Source of the DNA: a virus
Reading direction: 5' to 3' (one strand)
DNA: 36,415 nucleotides
IMG/VR virus record: IMGVR_UViG_3300023112_000048
Coordinates: 1-36,415 of that record
The notes under the pieces are model-generated. The model had not been told where the DNA came from. It saw nothing but the letters and a program-made list of their open reading frames with translations, and ran no database searches. Of this stretch, positions 1,827-36,165 are shown piece after piece (the stretch's first letter is position 1; every line of letters starts with the position of its first letter). The translations under genes were made by a program, and so were the position numbers.

Positions 1827-1944
1827 AACAATAGGAAGGGTTATAGTTAGCCCGTTTATTTATGCAGGTTATTTAATTATCGCAGCCGTAGGTTGTAGTA
1901 TGATGACTTGGCAGTATGTAAGAACAGGTAGTTTAAATGATTAG
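1813..1944 (+). CDS. Mini membrane protein (43 aa, GTG start)
   Basis: This short frame fills the only gap between terL and the first glycosyltransferase. Read from GTG at 1813 it gives 43 residues with one strongly hydrophobic stretch (about residues 10-31, including PFIYAGYLIIAAVG) followed by a polar tail. It overlaps the terL end by 14 bases and the next ATG by 8, the tight spacing seen elsewhere in the genome. A single transmembrane helix is likely. Function is unknown; the GTG start and short length leave doubt about expression. Confidence 0.45.
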   Translation: MDVIKTIGRVIVSPFIYAGYLIIAAVGCSMMTWQYVRTGSLND

Positions 1945-2536
1945 TATTATACTACCATACAACAAAGACAGAGGGTATCTAGCACACGCTTTAAACTCAA
2001 TCGATAGACAAACCTATAAAGATATTGAAGTGATACAGTCATTCTCTCCTAACTCAGTAGGCTATAATCTAAACGAAGGAATCAAAAAGGCTAAAGGCGA
2101 TTTAATCACTTATATATGTGATGATGATATGTTACCACCTAACGCTATTGAAGACACGGTAAACAACTTTAAAGGGGACTTCATACATGGCAACGCTTTA
2201 AACTTTCGGGCTGACGGTTATAGAAAATTGCAAGTACCTACTAAGTTAAATCCTACTTTAAATGATATGTTGAATAAGAACTTCGTACATGGTGGAACAG
2301 TTACCTATCATGCTAGATGTTTTGAGAATGATTTGTTTGATGAGTCACTAACTACTGGCGAAGAGTACGAGTTCAATCTAAGGTTGTTAAGTAAAGGATT
2401 TAAACTAGAGTATATCAATAAATTATTGTATCTTTACAGAAGACACGAAGCGCAAAAGAGTTTAGGTAATGAAGATGCTGAGTATATCAAGGCAAGGCGC
2501 AAGAAGATTAATTTAATTAAAGATAGGTTTAGATGA
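1937..2536 (+). CDS. Family 2 glycosyltransferase (GT-A fold)
   Basis: The 199-residue protein begins with the nucleotide-binding strand MISIILPYNKDRGYLAHA, followed by the SIDRQTYKDIEVI helix-strand typical of GT2 enzymes. The metal/nucleotide-sugar DxD motif is DDD at residues 62-64 (TYICDDDMLPP), and the C-terminal half has the acceptor-side TGEEYEFNLRL segment. It should transfer a sugar from a nucleotide-sugar donor. It is translationally coupled (4-base overlap) to a second glycosyltransferase, and both sit between terL and the tail genes. The pair may therefore decorate virion proteins or host surface glycans. The acceptor cannot be read from sequence. Confidence 0.88.
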   Translation: MISIILPYNKDRGYLAHALNSIDRQTYKDIEVIQSFSPNSVGYNLNEGIKKAKGDLITYICDDDMLPPNAIEDTVNNFKGDFIHGNALNFRADGYRKLQVPTKLNPTLNDMLNKNFVHGGTVTYHARCFENDLFDESLTTGEEYEFNLRLLSKGFKLEYINKLLYLYRRHEAQKSLGNEDAEYIKARRKKINLIKDRFR

Positions 2537-3210
2537 AGATAACCGCTAACATAGCAACGATGAAAGGTAGAGAGTCAAACCTTTACCAAACATTAGAATC
2601 TATCTTACCACAATTTGATAAGGTTAGGATAGTATTTAATGGGTTTGATAAGTTGCCGTCTTGGGCAATGGATGAGAGAATAGAGCCTATATTCCCAAAG
2701 GATGATTTAACAGACAACGGTAAGTTCTACTCACTTGATCCAAAGCGCAAAGAATACTACTTTACTTTAGATGACGATATTATCTATCCTGCTGACTATG
2801 TAGAAAGAACTATTGAGGCTATTGAGAAATACGGTTGCATAGTTAGTTATCATGGTAGGATATTGAATCCTAAAGAAACTACGTACTATCGTGGTAAGCA
2901 TCAATTCTATCATTGTGCTAGGGGAGAACATAAGAACTTAAGATTAGATGTATGTGGAACGGGTGTAACAGCATTTAGAACTGATTACTTTTGCCCTAAA
3001 GGATTACATAACCACGAGTACAAAAGGATGAGCGATTTAGTATTCAGTTTGGAAGCAGCAAAACAAGGTAAGGTTATAGGATTAATTAACAAGCCTAGTG
3101 GATGGATTAAACCGCAAGAGGTTAAACAGTCCATTTACCAAAGCGAAGTAAAGACGAGTCAAGTTAAACAAATAGAGTTAATGAATGAAATCATACAAAT
3201 TAATAATTAA
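2533..3210 (+). CDS. Second GT-A glycosyltransferase
   Basis: The 225-residue product starts MKITANIATMKGRESNLYQT, a Rossmann-like opening, and carries a DxD motif as DDD at residues 80-82 (YFTLDDDIIYP). The middle region is unusually rich in His, Tyr and Cys (YYRGKHQFYHCARGEH), and VCGTGVTAFRTDYF probably forms the acceptor loop. It differs from its upstream neighbour, so the two are not a recent duplication. The stop lies 26 bases inside the next gene. Two adjacent transferases suggest sequential addition of sugars to one acceptor, which is inference. The donor and acceptor are unknown. Confidence 0.82.
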   Translation: MKITANIATMKGRESNLYQTLESILPQFDKVRIVFNGFDKLPSWAMDERIEPIFPKDDLTDNGKFYSLDPKRKEYYFTLDDDIIYPADYVERTIEAIEKYGCIVSYHGRILNPKETTYYRGKHQFYHCARGEHKNLRLDVCGTGVTAFRTDYFCPKGLHNHEYKRMSDLVFSLEAAKQGKVIGLINKPSGWIKPQEVKQSIYQSEVKTSQVKQIELMNEIIQINN

Positions 3211-3787
3211 GCCAGTACAAGAGTTACCATGCTCGAAGTATCACATAGTCTATAACTTGAAAGATTACTTTGAAGACGTAGATAGTCCTGAGATACCCGA
3301 AATGGTAAGGTTAATATCTGATTGGACGGACGAGAAGCCTAATAAGTTGTTTACGTGCTTATCTAAAGATATTGTAGCAGCGTTTAATGCTATCACTACA
3401 CAACTAAATTCATACAAGCCACAGAAGCCTAAACAGTCAATAGGGGATTACGTGTTTATAATGGACTACGATAAGATGAGTGCAGGTTGGTGGAATCACA
3501 TTAACCACTTAGACATGAAGAACAACCCGTTGGAGTTACTTGGATTAGTTTATTTAGAGAAAGGTAAAGGATATGCGGAGGTAGATAAGCACGATAACGT
3601 CATTAACCCAGTGTCAGAACGGCAAAAGGCTTTAGTAGATGAAATGAGTTTGGCTGATTTCTTAGACATTGGCGCTTTTTTTTTGAATCAATACGTTATA
3701 TTGAAAGAGTTACACTCGGGATTGAACATAAACCAAGCAATGGAAGAGTTGAAGAGCCAACGCCTTACGGATGGGAAAACACACTAA
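3185..3787 (+). CDS. Tail assembly chaperone, zero-frame product
   Basis: This 200-residue acidic protein has no obvious enzymatic motif. Its position ahead of the tail genes, and a run of nine T at 3676-3684 from which the -1 frame stays open to 3924, identify it as a likely tail assembly chaperone of the gpG/gpGT type. Such chaperones bind the tape measure and recruit tail tube subunits. Ordinary translation gives the 200-residue form ending RLTDGKTH. A -1 slip after codon 166 would give a 246-residue form with a different C-terminus. The ATG overlaps the end of the glycosyltransferase gene. The functional call is inferred from context and recoding architecture rather than a recognised domain. 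Confidence 0.65.
   Translation: MKSYKLIIKPVQELPCSKYHIVYNLKDYFEDVDSPEIPEMVRLISDWTDEKPNKLFTCLSKDIVAAFNAITTQLNSYKPQKPKQSIGDYVFIMDYDKMSAGWWNHINHLDMKNNPLELLGLVYLEKGKGYAEVDKHDNVINPVSERQKALVDEMSLADFLDIGAFFLNQYVILKELHSGLNINQAMEELKSQRLTDGKTH
3676..3684 (+). other. Probable -1 programmed ribosomal frameshift site (T9)
   Basis: Nine consecutive T are read in frame as GCT TTT TTT TTG. Slipping back one base after the second TTT re-pairs Phe-tRNAs perfectly on TTT codons. It leads into a frame with no stop from 3682 to 3921, giving F-E-S-I-R-Y-I-E and then a Tyr/Trp-rich tail. This is the direction and placement expected for tail chaperone recoding. A homopolymer sequencing error is the alternative, but both frames look coding downstream. 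Confidence 0.65.
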
Positions 3788-3924
3788 TGAACTTATCAAC
3801 GTTTTATAGTTGCACATGGCACGAGTTAACGAATTTAAACATTAGAGCGTTTCAACATAGAGTTAAGTACTATGAATATATTAAAGAAGTAGAAGAGTTT
3901 GAAAGAGCAAAGTTAAGAAGATGA
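3682..3924 (+). CDS. -1 frame extension of the tail assembly chaperone (also a 45-aa ORF from 3787)
   Basis: This frame is open for 80 codons after the T9 slip site, ending at TGA 3922-3924, which overlaps the next gene's ATG. Its C-terminal part reads PYGWENTLMNLSTFYSCTW, then HELTNLNIRAFQHRVKYYEY and a charged helix ending AKLRR. It contains an ATG at 3787 that coincides with the stop of the zero frame, so it could also be translated separately as a 45-residue protein. The Trp-containing helical tail and position fit the T part of gpGT chaperones. Without it, 3788-3920 would be a gap in an otherwise gapless region. Confidence 0.62.
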   Translation, partial: FESIRYIERVTLGIEHKPSNGRVEEPTPYGWENTLMNLSTFYSCTWHELTNLNIRAFQHRVKYYEYIKEVEEFERAKLRR

Positions 3925-4496
3925 GTCAGAGTTTATTTAAACAGTTTGGTGCAGCAATGGATGACGTTATAGGGAATAAACCTGATAGCGCTTTGTCTCT
4001 TGCATTAATGGAAACATCAGCAAGTTTAATTGAAGACCTTAGAGAAAGCCTTGTTAGTTCTGGTGCTGTTGCAAGTAGACAACTATTACAATCAATCGCA
4101 CCTTTACCTGTTGAACTTAATGACGGTGTATTTACTATTTCTATTGAGATGGATAGTTATTGGAAGTTTATAAATGAAGGTGTAAACGGTACAGAGAGAG
4201 ACAGAGGTGCGCCAACTTGGGGGAAGACACCTAGTGTGGGTATGTCATTCAAAGAATCCATTAGGGAGTGGATGACGTTTAAAGGTATTACATCACTATC
4301 ATGGACGGATAAAGACGGTAACGCAGTAGTTAAAGAACTAAGCACAGAGCAAGACAGAGACGGAGCAGCCTTTGTAATTATGAGAGGGTTAAAAAAGAAT
4401 GGACAGAAAGCAACTTACTTCGTTGATAATGTATTAGACAATGATTACATAACAGAAATAGAAGATAAAATTTACAAAGCATGGCAGTCACAATAG
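3921..4496 (+). CDS. HK97 gp10-like head-tail/tail completion protein
   Basis: The 191-residue protein begins with a long helix (ALMETSASLIEDLRESLVSS). The middle strands, including ISIEMDSYWKFINEGVNGT, recall HK97 gp10-type completion proteins, in which a Tyr/Trp-rich strand precedes an 'inEgt' loop. It probably caps the tail or joins it to the neck. The start overlaps the -1 frame of the tail chaperone and the end overlaps the following tail gene by 16 bases. Family placement is moderate and relies on this pattern together with location. Confidence 0.6.
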   Translation: MSQSLFKQFGAAMDDVIGNKPDSALSLALMETSASLIEDLRESLVSSGAVASRQLLQSIAPLPVELNDGVFTISIEMDSYWKFINEGVNGTERDRGAPTWGKTPSVGMSFKESIREWMTFKGITSLSWTDKDGNAVVKELSTEQDRDGAAFVIMRGLKKNGQKATYFVDNVLDNDYITEIEDKIYKAWQSQ

Positions 4497-5635
4497 AGCA
4501 AAGTCCGAGTACAGATTTTGTATTAAGCGGTAATCCTATTATATGGGTTTTCAGTTCTAATCAAACAGGGCAGGTTAACTTTAGTTATTATGTTGAGGTT
4601 TATGTTGACGGTGTTTTAAATAGTTCACATCAAGTATTCCCAGAAAGCGGTATCTATGGAAAGTTTGACGCAAGCCAAATTGCGGAGAGTGAGTTAACTG
4701 CTCCAACAATTCCAACAGTTGAAACAGGAGAAGATGGAGGTAGTGCATCTATAAGTATAAAAGTCTATGAGAGATATGGAACTACACCAACATTACAAGC
4801 AAGCAGTACGTCATCTAGTGAGGTAGTTATAAAGGGTAAGTTATTTATGAATGCATGGATTAATACCGACTTAGACAATTACTTTGTAGATGAAGCAACT
4901 CTAAATAAAAAGTTTTTAAGTGATGCTACTGAATATAACCTTAGAGATGGAGAGTTATTAAATTTCTACTTTTGTGGAGAGGATGCTGATAACGATTATA
5001 GCATAGCCTTGTCTTATAGAGATGTTGACAATTCAGCCCTTCATAGTGAAGTTATAGCAGCAACTGGATATAATGGTTTATCTTGCTTTGCGTTGAGTTA
5101 TGACATACTAAACTCTTACTATTCAATGAATGATGTTTATTATATTAGGATGTATATAAGAATAAATACTAATAATTACAGAACTAACAACTACATAATA
5201 AACATTGACAAGTGCTTTAGACCAGACACAACACGTTTACACTTCCTAAACCAATTAGGAGGAGTAGATGCTTTTACATTCGATGCAGTTAGCAAGCAGT
5301 CAATGAGTACACAGACTAACTCATTCTTAACAACGCAAGGAGGTTTTGACGGTGCTGCTTATACTTACTCAACTACCAATAGTCAAACGGGTAACTATCA
5401 AGTTACGAGCAACACTAAGTTAATGCTAGAGAGTAATTGGATAAACGAGGATATTATGCAATGGCTTAACGACAACTTATTTACATCTCCTTATATTCTA
5501 ATGGAAACAGCAAACGGATTACAAAGGGTTGCTAATACTTCTGCATCTGTTAAGTATAAGAAGAATAGAAACGACATGGCTTTTAACGTAGTAATTGAAT
5601 TAGATTTACAAATGCACTCAAGCATGATTATATGA
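4481..5635 (+). CDS. Structural tail protein, distal tail/baseplate candidate
   Basis: This 384-residue protein is rich in Ser, Thr, Asn and Tyr with alternating beta patterns and no signal peptide. It opens with a beta-sandwich-like domain (about residues 1-115). It later contains LHFLNQLGGVDAFTFDAVSK, a 'LNxLGGxDAFTF' phrase I associate with structural tail proteins of Bacteroidetes phages and prophages. It is coupled by a 4-base overlap to a 794-residue baseplate-like protein. A role at the tail tip or baseplate is inferred from order (chaperone, completion protein, this gene, baseplate, fibre, tape measure). Enzymatic motifs were not seen. Confidence 0.6.
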   Translation: MAVTIEQSPSTDFVLSGNPIIWVFSSNQTGQVNFSYYVEVYVDGVLNSSHQVFPESGIYGKFDASQIAESELTAPTIPTVETGEDGGSASISIKVYERYGTTPTLQASSTSSSEVVIKGKLFMNAWINTDLDNYFVDEATLNKKFLSDATEYNLRDGELLNFYFCGEDADNDYSIALSYRDVDNSALHSEVIAATGYNGLSCFALSYDILNSYYSMNDVYYIRMYIRINTNNYRTNNYIINIDKCFRPDTTRLHFLNQLGGVDAFTFDAVSKQSMSTQTNSFLTTQGGFDGAAYTYSTTNSQTGNYQVTSNTKLMLESNWINEDIMQWLNDNLFTSPYILMETANGLQRVANTSASVKYKKNRNDMAFNVVIELDLQMHSSMII

Positions 5636-8016
5636 ATGACTACTTATTAATAGACGGTACTAAGGTGGATTTAAGCGAAGCAGATAAGATTGCTTTGTCA
5701 TTTTCTTATGCAGAGATTTCTGATCCTAGCAAAAGGAAGTTAAGCCAATCTAGGACTATTACTATTCCTGGCAACCAAAACAATACTAAATTCTTTCAAC
5801 GTGCTTACAATTTAACTTGGCAAGAGTTTGACGGTATTATATCGGCTGTATCTTTTGATAGTTCAAAACCTCACATTTGTAGTTACTACTCAGACAACCA
5901 AGTTATCTTTCAAGGTTACATTCAGATACTATCTAGTAAGATTAGTAAAGGAGTAGTTAACTTTGAAGCGGTATTGTTTAGTAACATCATAGGGCTATTA
6001 ACTCAGATAGGAGATAAGTTAGTTAGTGAGTTAGGTTGGTCGGAATATAACCATACTTTAAATCATACCAACATAGAGAACAGTTGGGAAACTTCTGTAA
6101 TAGTTGACGGTGTAGCAACATCTAACTTTACAGCAGGCGTTCCTGATGGCTTTGGTTATATGTATGGGCTTGTTGACTATGGATATGACAACATACTAGA
6201 CAAGTACAAAGATAATGAGATATACGGCTTTATTTATCAAAAGGAAGTAGTAGAGAAAACTATGGACTTTCTAGGTTATACTATAAACTCAGACTTCTTA
6301 GATTCAGAGTTAGGTAAACGATTACAGTTAGGTTATGGTGGCGGAGATAAATTTGAGTTATCTAGTGCAGATATTGCAGCGTTAGGAGTTAGTTCTACGG
6401 GAGACGGTAGCAGTACTTTAAGCAACACACTTATTCAAGACCCTATTTACGGAAACTACAACTCAAGTACTACACTTCAATCTGAAATAATAGACAGTTC
6501 ATTTGTAACCATTACAGAGGTAAGTGATACTACTAACCAAATGAATGCAGGTATTACTACTATGGCTATCACAGGCAACTTTGATGTGCATATTGAATTT
6601 GATTTAGATTGGAGTTTAGCACAAACCTCAACGGGTACAGTCAGCTTCATGAGGTTAAACTATTGGCAGTTGGTATTAGTTAAAAATGGCGTTGGTGCAG
6701 TTGTTCAGTCTAATTACACAGCAGTTAATACGAGTGGAACAATAAGCGTAGACTACACTAACAACTTCTTTTTTAATGGTGGAGATGATTACTACTTTAG
6801 ATTAGATGCTTACTATTCTGCTGGAGTACTAGCACCTACAACGGGTGGAGACTTTACAGTAACTTATGACTATAATAATACCATAGTACAAAACCAAGTT
6901 TGCACAAATGGAATAGTTCAGAATGGAAGTACAATCTACTTACCTAACTACATACCAAAGATAAAAGCGGTTGATAATTTCAAGTCATTGATTGAACATT
7001 TTAACCTTTACGTTAGTGAGCCAGACTTAGACGGTGTAGTAACTATTGAGCCATTAGAAGATTATTACTTTGATGCTGCGGATGCGGTTACATACACTAA
7101 GAAGATTGACCACACTAAAGATATTGAGATTGAGCCATTAGCATTAACACAGCCTAAGACTTATAACTTCATGTTTGCAGAGGATAAGGACTATTACAGA
7201 AGTCTTTACTTTGACAAGTGGGAGCAACACTATGGAGACTACACTTACGAGAATCAAACATTCTTTAGCAAAGGAGATAGTAGTTTTAAACTTAACTACA
7301 CAATCACACCACCCGTAGAAATAGACGGTACAGATTTAATAATACCTAGAGTGATTAAAGTAGAGAACGGTGTAATATCTCCATTCAAAGGTAAAGCGAG
7401 AATATACTACTATCAAGGATTAAGAACGGGAGCATGGACTTTAGAAGGTACTAACTCGGTTGCAGATAGTCCACAAACAGAATACCCACAAGTAGGACAC
7501 TTGGATGATATAGACAATCCTACCTTTGATATTTGCTTTGGTATGCCTAGAGAGTTGTTTTATAATGCTACATCTTACACAGCGGTTAATTGCTTTAGTG
7601 AGTATTACAGTAGATTTATAAACGAACTAACTAATCCTGATGCTAAGATGCTAAAGGCTTATTTTAGAGTAACTAACCAAGATGTAAAAGATGACTTTCT
7701 AAGATATATTTACAATATTGATGGAGTACTTTATAGAATTAACGTAGTGAAGGATTATGTTACCAATATGGGAACAACATATCATGAGTTTATTAAGATA
7801 ATTGAAGTAAGCAAAAGAAGAACTATTACATACACCACTACAATACCTAACGGACAAACAAGTATAATTGATGTTTCAGGAGATTTCCAAAGTGGATATA
7901 ATGCAGTTCTAACTACTAATAGAGTATTTATAGAGAAAGATAAACAAATGACAGCAAGCGATGGAACAGCCATAGATGGCGATTTAGTAATAGATGGAGA
8001 TTGGGTAATAACATAA
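5632..8016 (+). CDS. Large baseplate/tail tip protein
   Basis: The 794-residue product begins MNDYLLIDGTKVDLSEAD, then SQSRTITIPGNQNNTKFF, which resembles the N-terminal domain of baseplate hub-like proteins in Bacteroidetes tailed phages. The rest is a long series of beta-rich, Asp/Tyr/Asn-rich segments with few charged helices. The C-terminus (DGTAIDGDLVIDGDWVIT) is repetitive and Gly/Asp-rich and may dock the next protein, whose start has a comparable surface composition. It probably builds the tail tip platform carrying the putative receptor-binding protein. No lysozyme or peptidase motif was seen. Confidence 0.62.
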   Translation: MNDYLLIDGTKVDLSEADKIALSFSYAEISDPSKRKLSQSRTITIPGNQNNTKFFQRAYNLTWQEFDGIISAVSFDSSKPHICSYYSDNQVIFQGYIQILSSKISKGVVNFEAVLFSNIIGLLTQIGDKLVSELGWSEYNHTLNHTNIENSWETSVIVDGVATSNFTAGVPDGFGYMYGLVDYGYDNILDKYKDNEIYGFIYQKEVVEKTMDFLGYTINSDFLDSELGKRLQLGYGGGDKFELSSADIAALGVSSTGDGSSTLSNTLIQDPIYGNYNSSTTLQSEIIDSSFVTITEVSDTTNQMNAGITTMAITGNFDVHIEFDLDWSLAQTSTGTVSFMRLNYWQLVLVKNGVGAVVQSNYTAVNTSGTISVDYTNNFFFNGGDDYYFRLDAYYSAGVLAPTTGGDFTVTYDYNNTIVQNQVCTNGIVQNGSTIYLPNYIPKIKAVDNFKSLIEHFNLYVSEPDLDGVVTIEPLEDYYFDAADAVTYTKKIDHTKDIEIEPLALTQPKTYNFMFAEDKDYYRSLYFDKWEQHYGDYTYENQTFFSKGDSSFKLNYTITPPVEIDGTDLIIPRVIKVENGVISPFKGKARIYYYQGLRTGAWTLEGTNSVADSPQTEYPQVGHLDDIDNPTFDICFGMPRELFYNATSYTAVNCFSEYYSRFINELTNPDAKMLKAYFRVTNQDVKDDFLRYIYNIDGVLYRINVVKDYVTNMGTTYHEFIKIIEVSKRRTITYTTTIPNGQTSIIDVSGDFQSGYNAVLTTNRVFIEKDKQMTASDGTAIDGDLVIDGDWVIT

Positions 8017-9388: not shown

Positions 9389-11410
9389 ATGGCAAAGGAG
9401 ATAGCAATACAGATGAACATTGACACCCGTTCAGCAGAGGACGGGGTTAAAAGAGTTAATGAAGGATTAAAGCAGACGGATAAGGAGTTAAACAATATGT
9501 CTGATAAGGATATTGCGTTGACTAATAAACTTAAAGCGTTAGATGCAGAGGTTGAAAGCGGTACTCTATCAATGCGTCAAATGTCTAAATCAATCATGGA
9601 GTATCAATCTGTCGCATTAGCAGCAGGTAGAGAATCCCCCGTAGGTAAGCAAGCACTAGCACAAGCAGCAGACTTACAAGATAAGATGGTGGATTTACGT
9701 AATGAGACTACCAGACTTGCACACGATGGAGCAAATATGCAAGCAGCAATGCAACTCGGTGGAGGAATTGTAGCAGGTTACGGAGCGTTTCAAGGTGTTA
9801 CGGCTATGATGGGCGTAGAGAATGAGAAGTTAAAAGAAACCTTTATCAAACTACAAGCAGCACAAACTGCTCTAGTATCAATTGAACAGATTAGAACGGT
9901 GCTAGAAAAGGAATCCTTCTTAATGATTAAAGGTAAGGTTCTTTGGACTAAGGCTGAAACATTAGCAACGGGATTACTAAGTAGAGCAAAGGTAGCAGAT
10001 GCAACTGCAACAGCAGGAGCAACACTAGCAACTAAAGCATTTACTGCTGCTTTAATAGCAACTGGTATAGGTGCTATTGTGGTCGCCATAGGTTTACTTA
10101 TCGCAAACTTTGATGCTGTAACTACCGCTGTAAAAAAAGCTGTTGATTGGTTTAAGAATTTAGGGGAAGGTGTAAAATTAGTAATTTCTATTATATTCCC
10201 TTTCATTGGTTTAATAAGGCTAGTTAATGCTGCGTTAATAGAAATGGGTGTTATTGAAAGCGATGCAGCAGAAACAAGTAGAAAGGCGAGTGAGAAGAAA
10301 GCAGAAGCAGCAAGGAAAGCAGCAAAAGAGTATATTGAAGCAATAAAAGCAGAAGAAAAAGCACTTAAAGAAGCGACCGATGCAAAGGTTAAAGAGATAG
10401 ATTTTGAGATAGCCAAAAGAAATGCAGCAGGTAAAGATGTTTCTGATCTCGAGAGAGAGAAGATTAAACTACTAATTGAGTCAACACAAAAGGAAATTGA
10501 CTTAGCCAACAAAAGAAACGAAAGTAGGATTAAAGAGATTCAACTTATCGCTAAGATGGACAACTATGTAGGAGACTTAGCAAAGGAAAGGTTAAAGGAA
10601 ATTGAAGCAGAAGGATTAGCACTAGAGACTTCGTTAACTGGTTACACTCAGCAACTAGAAATCTTTGAAATCAAGCAGACTAAAATAAGAAGAGATGCAG
10701 CAGCAAAGAATAAGAAGTTTGCGGAAGAGGAATTTATAGAAGAGTATGAAAGAAGAGCAGCAAATAACATAGCCTTTGAAGAGCAAGAAATAGCATCAAC
10801 TAATAAGACTAATGAAGAACTATTAAAAATCTATCAAGACAATCAAGAGAAGATTAAGAAGCAAAGAGAGCAAGACTTAAAAGATGAGTTAAATGCAAAC
10901 TTAGCCAAGATAGATGCAGTAGAAAACTATGCTAATGCAGCAAGCGATATAACAGGTTCACTATTTGAAGTCACTAACAACTTAGGGAAGAAAGGAGAAG
11001 CAGCAGAAGAGAAAAGAGCAAAGAGACAATTCGGAGTTGAAAAGTTATTAGGTATTACAGAAGCAGCAATTAACACGGCTAAAGGGATTGTTAAATATAC
11101 AGCAAGTGGTAACTTACCAATGGTCGGAGTAATGGCAGCAACGGGAGCAGCACAAATAGCAGCAATAGCAAGTAAGAAGTTTCAGCCAGGAGGTGGAGGT
11201 GGTGGTTCAGCAAGTTCTGCTACAAGTTCAATCACTTCGGGTTCTGTGTCAAGTTCAAGCGGTGGTGTTGAAGGTAGCGGAGGAACGCAAACAACCAACA
11301 CAGAAGACTTAACTAATGATGGCGGAGGTATGCAAACGGTGTTAGTATTAGATAGCCTTACTAAAGTACAGAACAAACAAAATAAGATTGACGCATTGAG
11401 CAGTATATAA
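9389..11410 (+). CDS. Tape measure protein
   Basis: The 673-residue protein combines features of tape measures: a helical N-terminus, a hydrophobic central block (about residues 205-280, including ALIATGIGAIVVAIGLLIAN), long Ala/Glu/Lys-rich coiled coils (about 290-510), and a Gly/Ser-rich C-terminus beginning PGGGGGGSASS. It spans the tail lumen, sets tail length and is chaperoned by the frameshift protein. By the usual relation of about 1.5 angstroms per residue, 673 residues would correspond to a tail near 100 nm, which is an estimate. The gene ends 29 bases before a strong terminator, so it closes the tail transcription unit. Confidence 0.88.
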   Translation: MAKEIAIQMNIDTRSAEDGVKRVNEGLKQTDKELNNMSDKDIALTNKLKALDAEVESGTLSMRQMSKSIMEYQSVALAAGRESPVGKQALAQAADLQDKMVDLRNETTRLAHDGANMQAAMQLGGGIVAGYGAFQGVTAMMGVENEKLKETFIKLQAAQTALVSIEQIRTVLEKESFLMIKGKVLWTKAETLATGLLSRAKVADATATAGATLATKAFTAALIATGIGAIVVAIGLLIANFDAVTTAVKKAVDWFKNLGEGVKLVISIIFPFIGLIRLVNAALIEMGVIESDAAETSRKASEKKAEAARKAAKEYIEAIKAEEKALKEATDAKVKEIDFEIAKRNAAGKDVSDLEREKIKLLIESTQKEIDLANKRNESRIKEIQLIAKMDNYVGDLAKERLKEIEAEGLALETSLTGYTQQLEIFEIKQTKIRRDAAAKNKKFAEEEFIEEYERRAANNIAFEEQEIASTNKTNEELLKIYQDNQEKIKKQREQDLKDELNANLAKIDAVENYANAASDITGSLFEVTNNLGKKGEAAEEKRAKRQFGVEKLLGITEAAINTAKGIVKYTASGNLPMVGVMAATGAAQIAAIASKKFQPGGGGGGSASSATSSITSGSVSSSSGGVEGSGGTQTTNTEDLTNDGGGMQTVLVLDSLTKVQNKQNKIDALSSI

Positions 11411-25568: not shown

Positions 25569-26243
25569 ATGAAGTATAAAGTATTGAATTTATATGCTTG
25601 TCTCGGTGGTAATCGTTTCAAGTGGGATGAAGTAGCAGAAGAAAAGGGTATTGAGTTAGAAGTAACTGCGGTTGAATTAGACCCAGAACTTGCGAGAATG
25701 TATCAAGAAAGGTTTCCTAATGATATTGTAATAGTAGAAGATGCGCACCAATATTTACTAGACCATTACAAAGAATTTGACTTTATTTGGTCAAGCCCTC
25801 CTTGTCCTACACATAGTAGAGCCAGGTATTGGAATAGTTCAAATTATGAAACAAAAACAGAGGCAGTTTATCCAGATATGAAACTTTACCAGGAGATACT
25901 TTTCTTAGAGCATTATTATAGAACTGGAAAATATGTAGTAGAAAATGTAATACCATACTATGAGCCTTTAATTCCTTCAAAAAAGCGAGGTAGGCACTTG
26001 TATTGGACTAACTTTAATTTACCATCAGATTTAGGAGATAGAAGATTTGCTATAAGTTCAGCAAAACAAGAATTAAAAGGCTTATGTTCTTTTCATGAAT
26101 ACGACTTTACTAAATACAAAGGAGAGCAACCGGTTTTAAAAATGGCTCGTAACTTAGTAGACTATGAAGCGGGTAGAAAAATCTTTGAAACTGCTTTAGG
26201 TATCTACAAAAGTAAAAATGTAAATCAAACAGAACTTTTTTAA
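25569..26243 (+). CDS. DNA cytosine-5 methyltransferase (compact)
   Basis: This 224-residue enzyme carries the C5-methyltransferase core: motif I-like LNLYACLGGNR (about 6-16), motif IV with the catalytic Cys in SSPPCPTHSRAR (C79), and motif VI ENV (125-127, YVVENVIPYY). RHLYWTNF is a motif VIII region typical of phage versions. It transfers methyl from S-adenosylmethionine to a cytosine. The protein is short with little room for a target-recognition domain. No restriction endonuclease is nearby, so it probably protects phage DNA from host restriction. Recognition sequence unknown. Confidence 0.85.
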   Translation: MKYKVLNLYACLGGNRFKWDEVAEEKGIELEVTAVELDPELARMYQERFPNDIVIVEDAHQYLLDHYKEFDFIWSSPPCPTHSRARYWNSSNYETKTEAVYPDMKLYQEILFLEHYYRTGKYVVENVIPYYEPLIPSKKRGRHLYWTNFNLPSDLGDRRFAISSAKQELKGLCSFHEYDFTKYKGEQPVLKMARNLVDYEAGRKIFETALGIYKSKNVNQTELF

Positions 26244-34513: not shown

Positions 34514-35008
34514 GTGAATTTATCAGACATAGTAATTAGTGATAAGTCGTTTTATGAAATGGCTGTGAAGATTGACCCTAAAAACTCAGACGAATTATAC
34601 CAAAGTGCTTGGTTGAAGATTAGAGAGATGGAGTTAAAGAAACCAATAGACACTAACAACCAAAAAGCATATTTCTATATGACGTTAAAGAGTATCTTTA
34701 TAGATAACAAGAGAAGAGATAAGTTAGCGAATGAGTATAGACACGTAACAATTGAGCAAACGTCTTACCAAATGGCTTTAGATGTAGTCCTAGCAGAAGA
34801 CAATGAGTTAAGTAGCCTAGTTAAATTATACTTAGTAATGCCTAACTTAAAAAATATTAGTACATTTACAAACATAGATTATAAAACAGTAAAAAAATTA
34901 TACAAAGATGCAAGAACTTATATCAAGTCTATCGCTGACGGAATGGCAGATGATGACCACTTCAATAGTTATTATGACTCATGCGCTGAATATACCCTAT
35001 TGGATTAA
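34514..35008 (+). CDS. Sigma-70-like factor, possible late-gene activator
   Basis: The 164-residue protein from GTG 34514 has a region-2-like segment (DELYQSAWLKIREMELKKP, KAYFYMTLKSIFIDNKRRDK) and a C-terminal region-4-like HTH (about 107-140, NLKNISTFTNIDYKTVKKLY). It resembles small sigma factors in Bacteroidetes phages. Its position immediately upstream of the terminase and the virion genes suggests control of late transcription. GTG is the first usable codon; an ATG at 34559 would remove part of region 2. Overlap with the following gene is 101 bases. Confidence 0.68.
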   Translation: MNLSDIVISDKSFYEMAVKIDPKNSDELYQSAWLKIREMELKKPIDTNNQKAYFYMTLKSIFIDNKRRDKLANEYRHVTIEQTSYQMALDVVLAEDNELSSLVKLYLVMPNLKNISTFTNIDYKTVKKLYKDARTYIKSIADGMADDDHFNSYYDSCAEYTLLD

Positions 35009-35634: not shown

Positions 35635-35728
35635 TAAAGAAGAACCAAAAGGAATTGGAAGCGTTATAGTACCAGTAATATCATTGGCTATATTGATTTA
35701 TGCAGTTTATACATTTGTAACTATTTAA
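35627..35728 (+). CDS. Mini membrane protein (33 aa), complete copy
   Basis: ATG at 35627 gives MSNKEEPKGIGSVIVPVISL and a hydrophobic remainder (about 12-33), ending VTI before a stop that shares one base with the terS ATG. A single membrane helix with polar N-terminus is predicted. The last 32 bases are identical at window position 1. It may be a regulatory or holin-like peptide; evidence is limited to composition and exact fit. Confidence 0.6.
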   Translation: MSNKEEPKGIGSVIVPVISLAILIYAVYTFVTI

Positions 35729-35795
35729 TGGCACGACCTAAAGGAACGAAATATATCGAGACACCCGAAAAGATGTGGGAGTTATTCGTAGCGTA
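35697..35795 (+). repeat. Exact 99-base repeat of the window start
   Basis: Bases 35697-35795 are identical to 1-99, base for base. The next base differs (T for C) and the sequences diverge progressively. The repeat covers the end of the mini membrane gene and the first 68 bases of terS. It indicates circular or redundant ends of the assembled genome. Confidence 0.95.
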
Positions 35796-36165
35796 TAAAG
35801 AAAGCGTCAAGGCTAATCCTCGTTATGTGTATGAGTATCATGGTAAGGACGGTGTACAAGTAAAGAAGCCTTTAGAGAGACCTTTGACTATGGAGGGTTT
35901 TGAGTGTTATGTAATGGATAATTCAAATATTAACTACCCTGATTTATCAGAATATTTTGAAGGTAAGAATGAATCTTATAAAGATTATTTCCCTATCACC
36001 ACGCGTATACGAAGAGAAATAAGAGCAGACCAACTCGACGGAGGGCTAGTAAATCAATACAATTCTAACTTAACAGCAAGGGTAACGGGATTAGTTGACA
36101 AGCAAGAAAGTAATACTAATATTACAAGCGTTCCTATCTTCGGATCAAATCCACTAGATGCCTAA
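35728..36165 (+). CDS. terS: Second, diverged terminase small subunit
   Basis: This 145-residue copy shares the first ~60 residues with the 32-448 product but for V/L and R/V changes, then departs: NSNINYPDLSEYFEGKNESY and a different tail ending PIFGSNPLDA. The C-terminal half may fit another large subunit, encoded directly after it. Compared with the first copy, no AP2-like gene follows. It could represent a variant phage in the same sample or a true second module. Confidence 0.85.
   Translation: MARPKGTKYIETPEKMWELFVAYKESVKANPRYVYEYHGKDGVQVKKPLERPLTMEGFECYVMDNSNINYPDLSEYFEGKNESYKDYFPITTRIRREIRADQLDGGLVNQYNSNLTARVTGLVDKQESNTNITSVPIFGSNPLDA

Follow-up and report, generated by a model that had tools for sequence, protein, structure and literature searches.

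Frameshifting in tail assembly chaperone genes is textbook ribosomal recoding, and the slippery heptamer of lambda, the phage of gpG and gpGT, is GGGAAAG. In P2 the -1 shift occurs on a run of T, and it too has been published as translational (PMC3931495). Homopolymeric tracts are also sites of slippage in transcription: for bacterial RNA polymerase, runs from T7 upward are slippery, with poly-T preferred (PMC6260861); insertions increase exponentially with run length, 80% of them being of one base (PMC5574713); and a list of transcriptional-slippage motifs includes Tn with n > 8 (PMC3711429). In dnaX either mechanism is used, depending on the species (PMC3711429), and slippage in mxiE has been measured at 20–30% (PMC4256274). 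In the open-access literature we found no phage tail chaperone for which slippage in transcription is described.

The window analyzed here is a whole stretch of viral DNA, 36,415 nucleotides in length. It contains a single T run of nine or more, a T9 at 3676–3684 (+), which lies within a 200-codon gene at 3185–3787 (+). In the 0 frame the tract is read GCT TTT TTT TTG (A164-F165-F166-L167), and the gene stops at TAA, 3785–3787. The -1 frame has no stop from 3658 to 3921 and terminates at a TGA (3922–3924) that overlaps the ATG (3921) of the next gene (3921–4496, +) as ATGA. A change of frame at T9 would attach an extension of 80 codons plus TGA (3682–3924, +) after residue 166, giving a predicted fusion of 166 + 80 = 246 residues with the junction A-F-F-F-E-S-I-R. 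An earlier sequence-only reading had described the nine-T run in a 200-residue gene, the -1 frame open through the segment before the next gene and ending at its ATG, and a 246-residue fusion joined at AFFFESIR; our coordinates and translation bear this out. Absent from that reading was the overlap of the 0-frame stop with an ATG as TAATG (3785–3789, +), a possible re-initiation start for a 45-codon ORF in the -1 frame.

From its two-form layout and tail-module context, rather than from homology, the gene probably encodes a tail assembly chaperone like that of lambda G/GT. The short form, for which homologues were aligned from 53 relatives, is predicted by AlphaFold2 to be helical (mean pLDDT 93), with T9 inside a long last helix spanning residues 156–197; the extension is modeled as a separate helical, putatively T-like domain (mean pLDDT 85) whose C-terminal part is well predicted. 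Searches for related folds in the PDB gave no credible match and those of Pfam and PHROG no functional match; PHROG 32199, whose function is unknown, matches 18 of 53 members. Among viral structure models the good matches are unnamed, one being from P12024S, and weak BFVD rows name tail chaperones. The lambda gpG/gpGT layout claimed in the sequence-only reading is thus present, but no sequence family or solved fold confirms the identification as a tail chaperone.

Tail chaperone genes usually lie between those for the major tail protein and the tape measure, a position that is not strictly defining and that this gene does not occupy. It follows the terminase large subunit gene (TerL, 675–1826, +; Pfam Terminase_3 and Terminase_3C) and two glycosyltransferase genes, and the probable tape measure gene (9389–11410, +; phrog_3336, tail length tape measure protein, E 6.7e-05) is 5.5 kb downstream. 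L015 and P12024L are among the relatives with a similar gene order. The intervening glycosyltransferase genes, at 1937–3210, belong to family 2 by Pfam, and in the relatives that were read the chaperone gene is mostly nearer to TerL than it is in the window. Elsewhere in the window, near the ends of the record, 32–448 and 35728–36165 hold a diverged pair of gp3-like DNA-packaging (small terminase) genes (Pfam GP3_package), the first 40-odd residues of which are identical, and 25569–26243 is a C-5 cytosine DNA methyltransferase-like gene (Pfam). A small gene at 34514–35008 looks sigma-factor-like by eye, with no Pfam match at 0.001, and in P12024L a Sigma-70 region 2 gene lies slightly before TerL; the window gene, if it is a real sigma factor, could matter for late transcription.

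Since the window protein, used as a query, found no match in GenBank phages or viral contigs, loci were gathered through its neighbors, as homologues of TerL or of the large tail-module gene at 5632–8016 (+), the latter supplying L097–L175; T runs were not a criterion. Two genome matches to the window protein, L002 and L003, were rejected as multicopper oxidases that have DWTDEKPN in common with it, and 395 genomes from the phylum of G001 gave two marginal N-terminal matches and nothing more. In L004 the next gene is 97% identical to that of the window, but the contig begins downstream of T9. The first relatives read had an ORF of about 180–250 codons, a T9 and an overlapping -1 ORF. A junction scan open to T runs of seven or more then identified 128 loci with a -1 extension, the window included, of which 119 carry T9 and 9 carry T10 (an unrelated T7 in L138 was left out of this count); clustering at 70% amino-acid identity groups them into 61 clusters, and clustering at 40% into 31. 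Profiles of the N-terminal part and the extension added five junctions in truncated contigs, all T9, to give 133 junction-spanning loci: 124 with T9, 9 with T10 and none with T7 or T8. In every one the run lies near residue 160 and the -1 extension is about 80 codons long. The sequence-only reading had asked whether relatives keep a slippery run and the same open frame, and every junction-spanning relative keeps both. Comparison across these relatives indicates that the pairing of T9 with an open -1 frame is conserved and not a product of chance.

Most of the remaining loci stop before the junction, start after it, or show no homologue. In some TerL loci, L065 and L067 for example, no homologue is recognizable; one that has diverged and lacks T9 might be present. 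At the equivalent gene of the distant relatives phi46:1 and FPSV-S2, neither T9 nor an extension of this kind is seen. In Elizabethkingia phage TCUEAP1 (TCUEAP1_3, L006 2164–2706) a C-like domain is in frame (E 6e-4) and there is no T tract; this gene is possibly a natural in-frame fusion of the N-terminal part and a C-like domain, an arrangement suggesting that the two parts are able to work as one chain. The cultured Nonlabens phages P12024L and P12024S have T9 and the same extension. Their junction genes (L176 6001–6695 and L177 3001–3695, respectively) are each annotated as two hypothetical ORFs, an annotation that should be changed, we suggest, to one frameshifted gene with T9.

A -1 slip and the insertion of one extra U into the mRNA lead to an identical 246-residue fusion, and for this reason detection of the AFFFESIR peptide would not separate the two mechanisms. 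The tract itself is more informative. Elsewhere in these loci, the strand that carries the junction has 170 T7, 64 T8, 11 T9 (16 counted minus the five junction runs) and 1 T10; the probability that a run of at least seven extends to at least nine is about 5% in this background versus 100% at the junction. The T9 clusters place the run in codon phase 1 (30 clusters), phase 2 (25) or phase 0 (2), and the residues that flank the two Phe vary by phase (Ala/Gly/Ser...Leu versus Val/Leu...Cys/Trp/Tyr) with the run constant. On a maximum-likelihood tree run phase or length has changed at least seven times, and T≥9 is found at all tips. If neither the encoded residues nor a working heptamer could change, a universal T≥9 would arise by synonymous choice alone with p ~10^-8 (31 clusters), a value that serves as a guide only, because clusters are taken as independent and possible dual-coding constraints are ignored. 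That nine or more T residues are kept through changes of phase and length, with no T7 or T8, suggests that run length itself is selected, as would fit transcriptional slippage from 9U to 10U: what is conserved is an A/T homopolymer, kept in length and long enough for RNA polymerase to slip. From this pattern in the sequences we consider it probable, with moderate confidence, that the slip at T9 is made mainly by RNA polymerase.

A programmed -1 ribosomal frameshift, in which two Phe-tRNAs slip in tandem on U_UUU_UUU within the run, a shift of the type known from lambda G/GT and P2 E/E', is a possible but somewhat unlikely account of the same protein. The in-frame slippery heptamer T_TTT_TTT is present in every phase of T9 and T10, frameshifts in phage tail chaperones have generally been reported as ribosomal (PMC5009743, PMC3931495), and the rates published for transcriptional slippage at such tracts, about 15–30% (PMC4256274), are above the ratio of roughly 1:30 reported for lambda (PMC5009743). 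Seven bases (U_UUU_UUN) are enough for a ribosome, yet the 61 clusters contain no T7 or T8 and no U_UUU_UUC/A/G. Conserved RNA structure was found on neither side of the run, upstream or downstream (mean z close to 0 over 61 clusters; −0.17 and 0.05 for the two windows downstream), a downstream structure being a common, if not constant, companion of ribosomal frameshifting. A search of Rfam gave no match, and no terminator-like hairpin that might act as a slippage stimulator was found upstream.

The P2-like phages show what a family of ribosomal slip sites looks like. The control comprised P2 and 15 diverse relatives taken from spread GenBank hits; relatives of P2 from viral contigs were left out as near-identical. 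The E/E' sites are mostly T6G, with T7, T6C, AAATTTT and GGGAAAG also represented, and all T runs at the site are shorter than eight. Such sites are short and replaceable, so the ribosomal-slip family differs from the T9/T10 family, in which constraint is not confined to a heptamer. Base composition is unlike between the control and the T9 group, and for that reason the within-locus background also matters. The ribosome could nonetheless contribute to the frame switch, or suffice for it, given that every T9 holds U_UUU_UUU, and the host ribosomes of these phages might need longer U runs. Of the programmed -1 frameshift that the sequence-only reading thought probable, a conserved frame switch at T9 and a fused -1 domain stand; a translational slip is not established, there being no run below nine and the phase being variable.

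Whichever machinery slips, the extension behaves as coding sequence. Beyond the 0-frame stop pN/pS in the -1 frame is 0.10 (30 pairs of relatives), a level that reflects strong purifying selection on the extension. Inside the overlap, for the same number of pairs, pN/pS is 0.34 in the -1 frame versus 0.63 in the 0 frame; the stronger constraint on the -1 frame suggests that it is already being read before the 0-frame stop. These values bear on a very improbable reading of the locus as two separate genes, in which ribosomes would re-initiate at TAATG and make a 45-residue protein. That reading has in its favor the TAATG overlap of the window and the annotation of the P12024L and P12024S loci as two ORFs, but the constraint in the overlap opposes it, and it leaves T9 unexplained. 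A near-invariant Trp (codon 3772–3774, +; W31 of the extension, kept in at least 90% of 41 relatives) is encoded 5′ of the re-initiation ATG at 3787, which argues that the fusion is the intended product. The extension has no ATG anywhere in 18 of the 61 clusters, and an ATG no more than 40 nt from the stop is found in only 28; together, the Trp and the clusters without ATG indicate that re-initiation is not the general mechanism. In layout and in selection, then, the 133 loci have what characterizes the G/GT type, a conserved -1 extension that is predicted to be fused to the product of a 0-frame ORF, and on these comparisons the frame switch almost certainly yields a fusion protein.

It is less likely still that T9 is a phase-variation tract, at which changes of run length in the DNA turn the gene on and off: poly-T tracts are mutable, and mutable tracts are one known source of frame transitions (PMC3711429), but the frame relation is identical in all relatives, the run is only 9 or 10 long, and an in-frame variant was not seen among them. 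A sequencing or assembly error, the real run being 8 or 10 T and both frames one gene, is the least credible explanation, homopolymers being error-prone on some platforms but the same offset recurring in 133 loci and two isolated phages, so that the relatives already contradict it.

In the scheme that we infer for the transcriptional timing of the slip, its rate and its part in tail assembly, the gene would make two proteins with a common first 166 residues: an abundant short form of 200 residues and a rarer long form of 246, which carries the helical domain of the -1 frame, T9 being the switch point. Most likely, a backward slip of one base by RNA polymerase on T9 adds an extra U to the transcript; the minority of mRNAs with 10 U's would then be read directly into the extension. 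The tract would be held at 9–10 T because slippage depends on length. The short form probably coats the tape measure protein, as gpG does, and the long form probably recruits the tail tube protein, as does gpGT.

More broadly, we think it reasonably likely that in a large, mostly uncultured group related to Bacteroidota phages, programmed transcriptional slippage on a length-selected T9 replaces the ribosomal chaperone frameshift of lambda and P2, and that the polymerase sets the ratio of short to long form. If this is true of the whole group, transcription and translation can stand in for each other at the step that sets the ratio, as they do for dnaX (PMC3711429), and neither search tools that look only for heptamers nor mass spectrometry of the junction can tell the mechanism. 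A segment left unannotated in many phages, and given as two hypothetical ORFs in P12024L and P12024S, would be explained, and these two phages are a cultured pair suited to settling the mechanism.

The closest likeness in layout is to lambda gpG/gpGT: a short form and a -1-extended long form with a common N-terminus, an extension that ends at the start of the next gene, and a tail module nearby. The tract here is T9 or T10 whereas that of lambda is a mixed heptamer; the gene here comes after TerL, from which two glycosyltransferase genes separate it in this window, and is far from the tape measure gene; there is no detectable relationship in sequence or solved fold; and the mechanism of the slip is likely another. 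P2 E/E+E' is likewise a tail chaperone gene with a -1 extension on a T run, but P2-like sites are T6G, T7, T6C or other heptamers in the tandem-slip phase, whereas the run here is always T9–T10 and occurs in three phases. In Shigella mxiE, transcriptional slippage on a long T tract (n > 8, PMC3711429) likewise yields an extended product; mxiE is a cellular regulator, whereas this is a phage structural-assembly gene in which slippage is family-wide and predicted from sequence. Finally, although tssM1 of Citrobacter rodentium has an A tract (A11) and is a bacterial secretion gene in which slippage restores an interrupted gene, there too homopolymer slip produces a component of a phage-tail-like machine in two lengths, with ribosomal stimulators absent nearby (PMC4256274).
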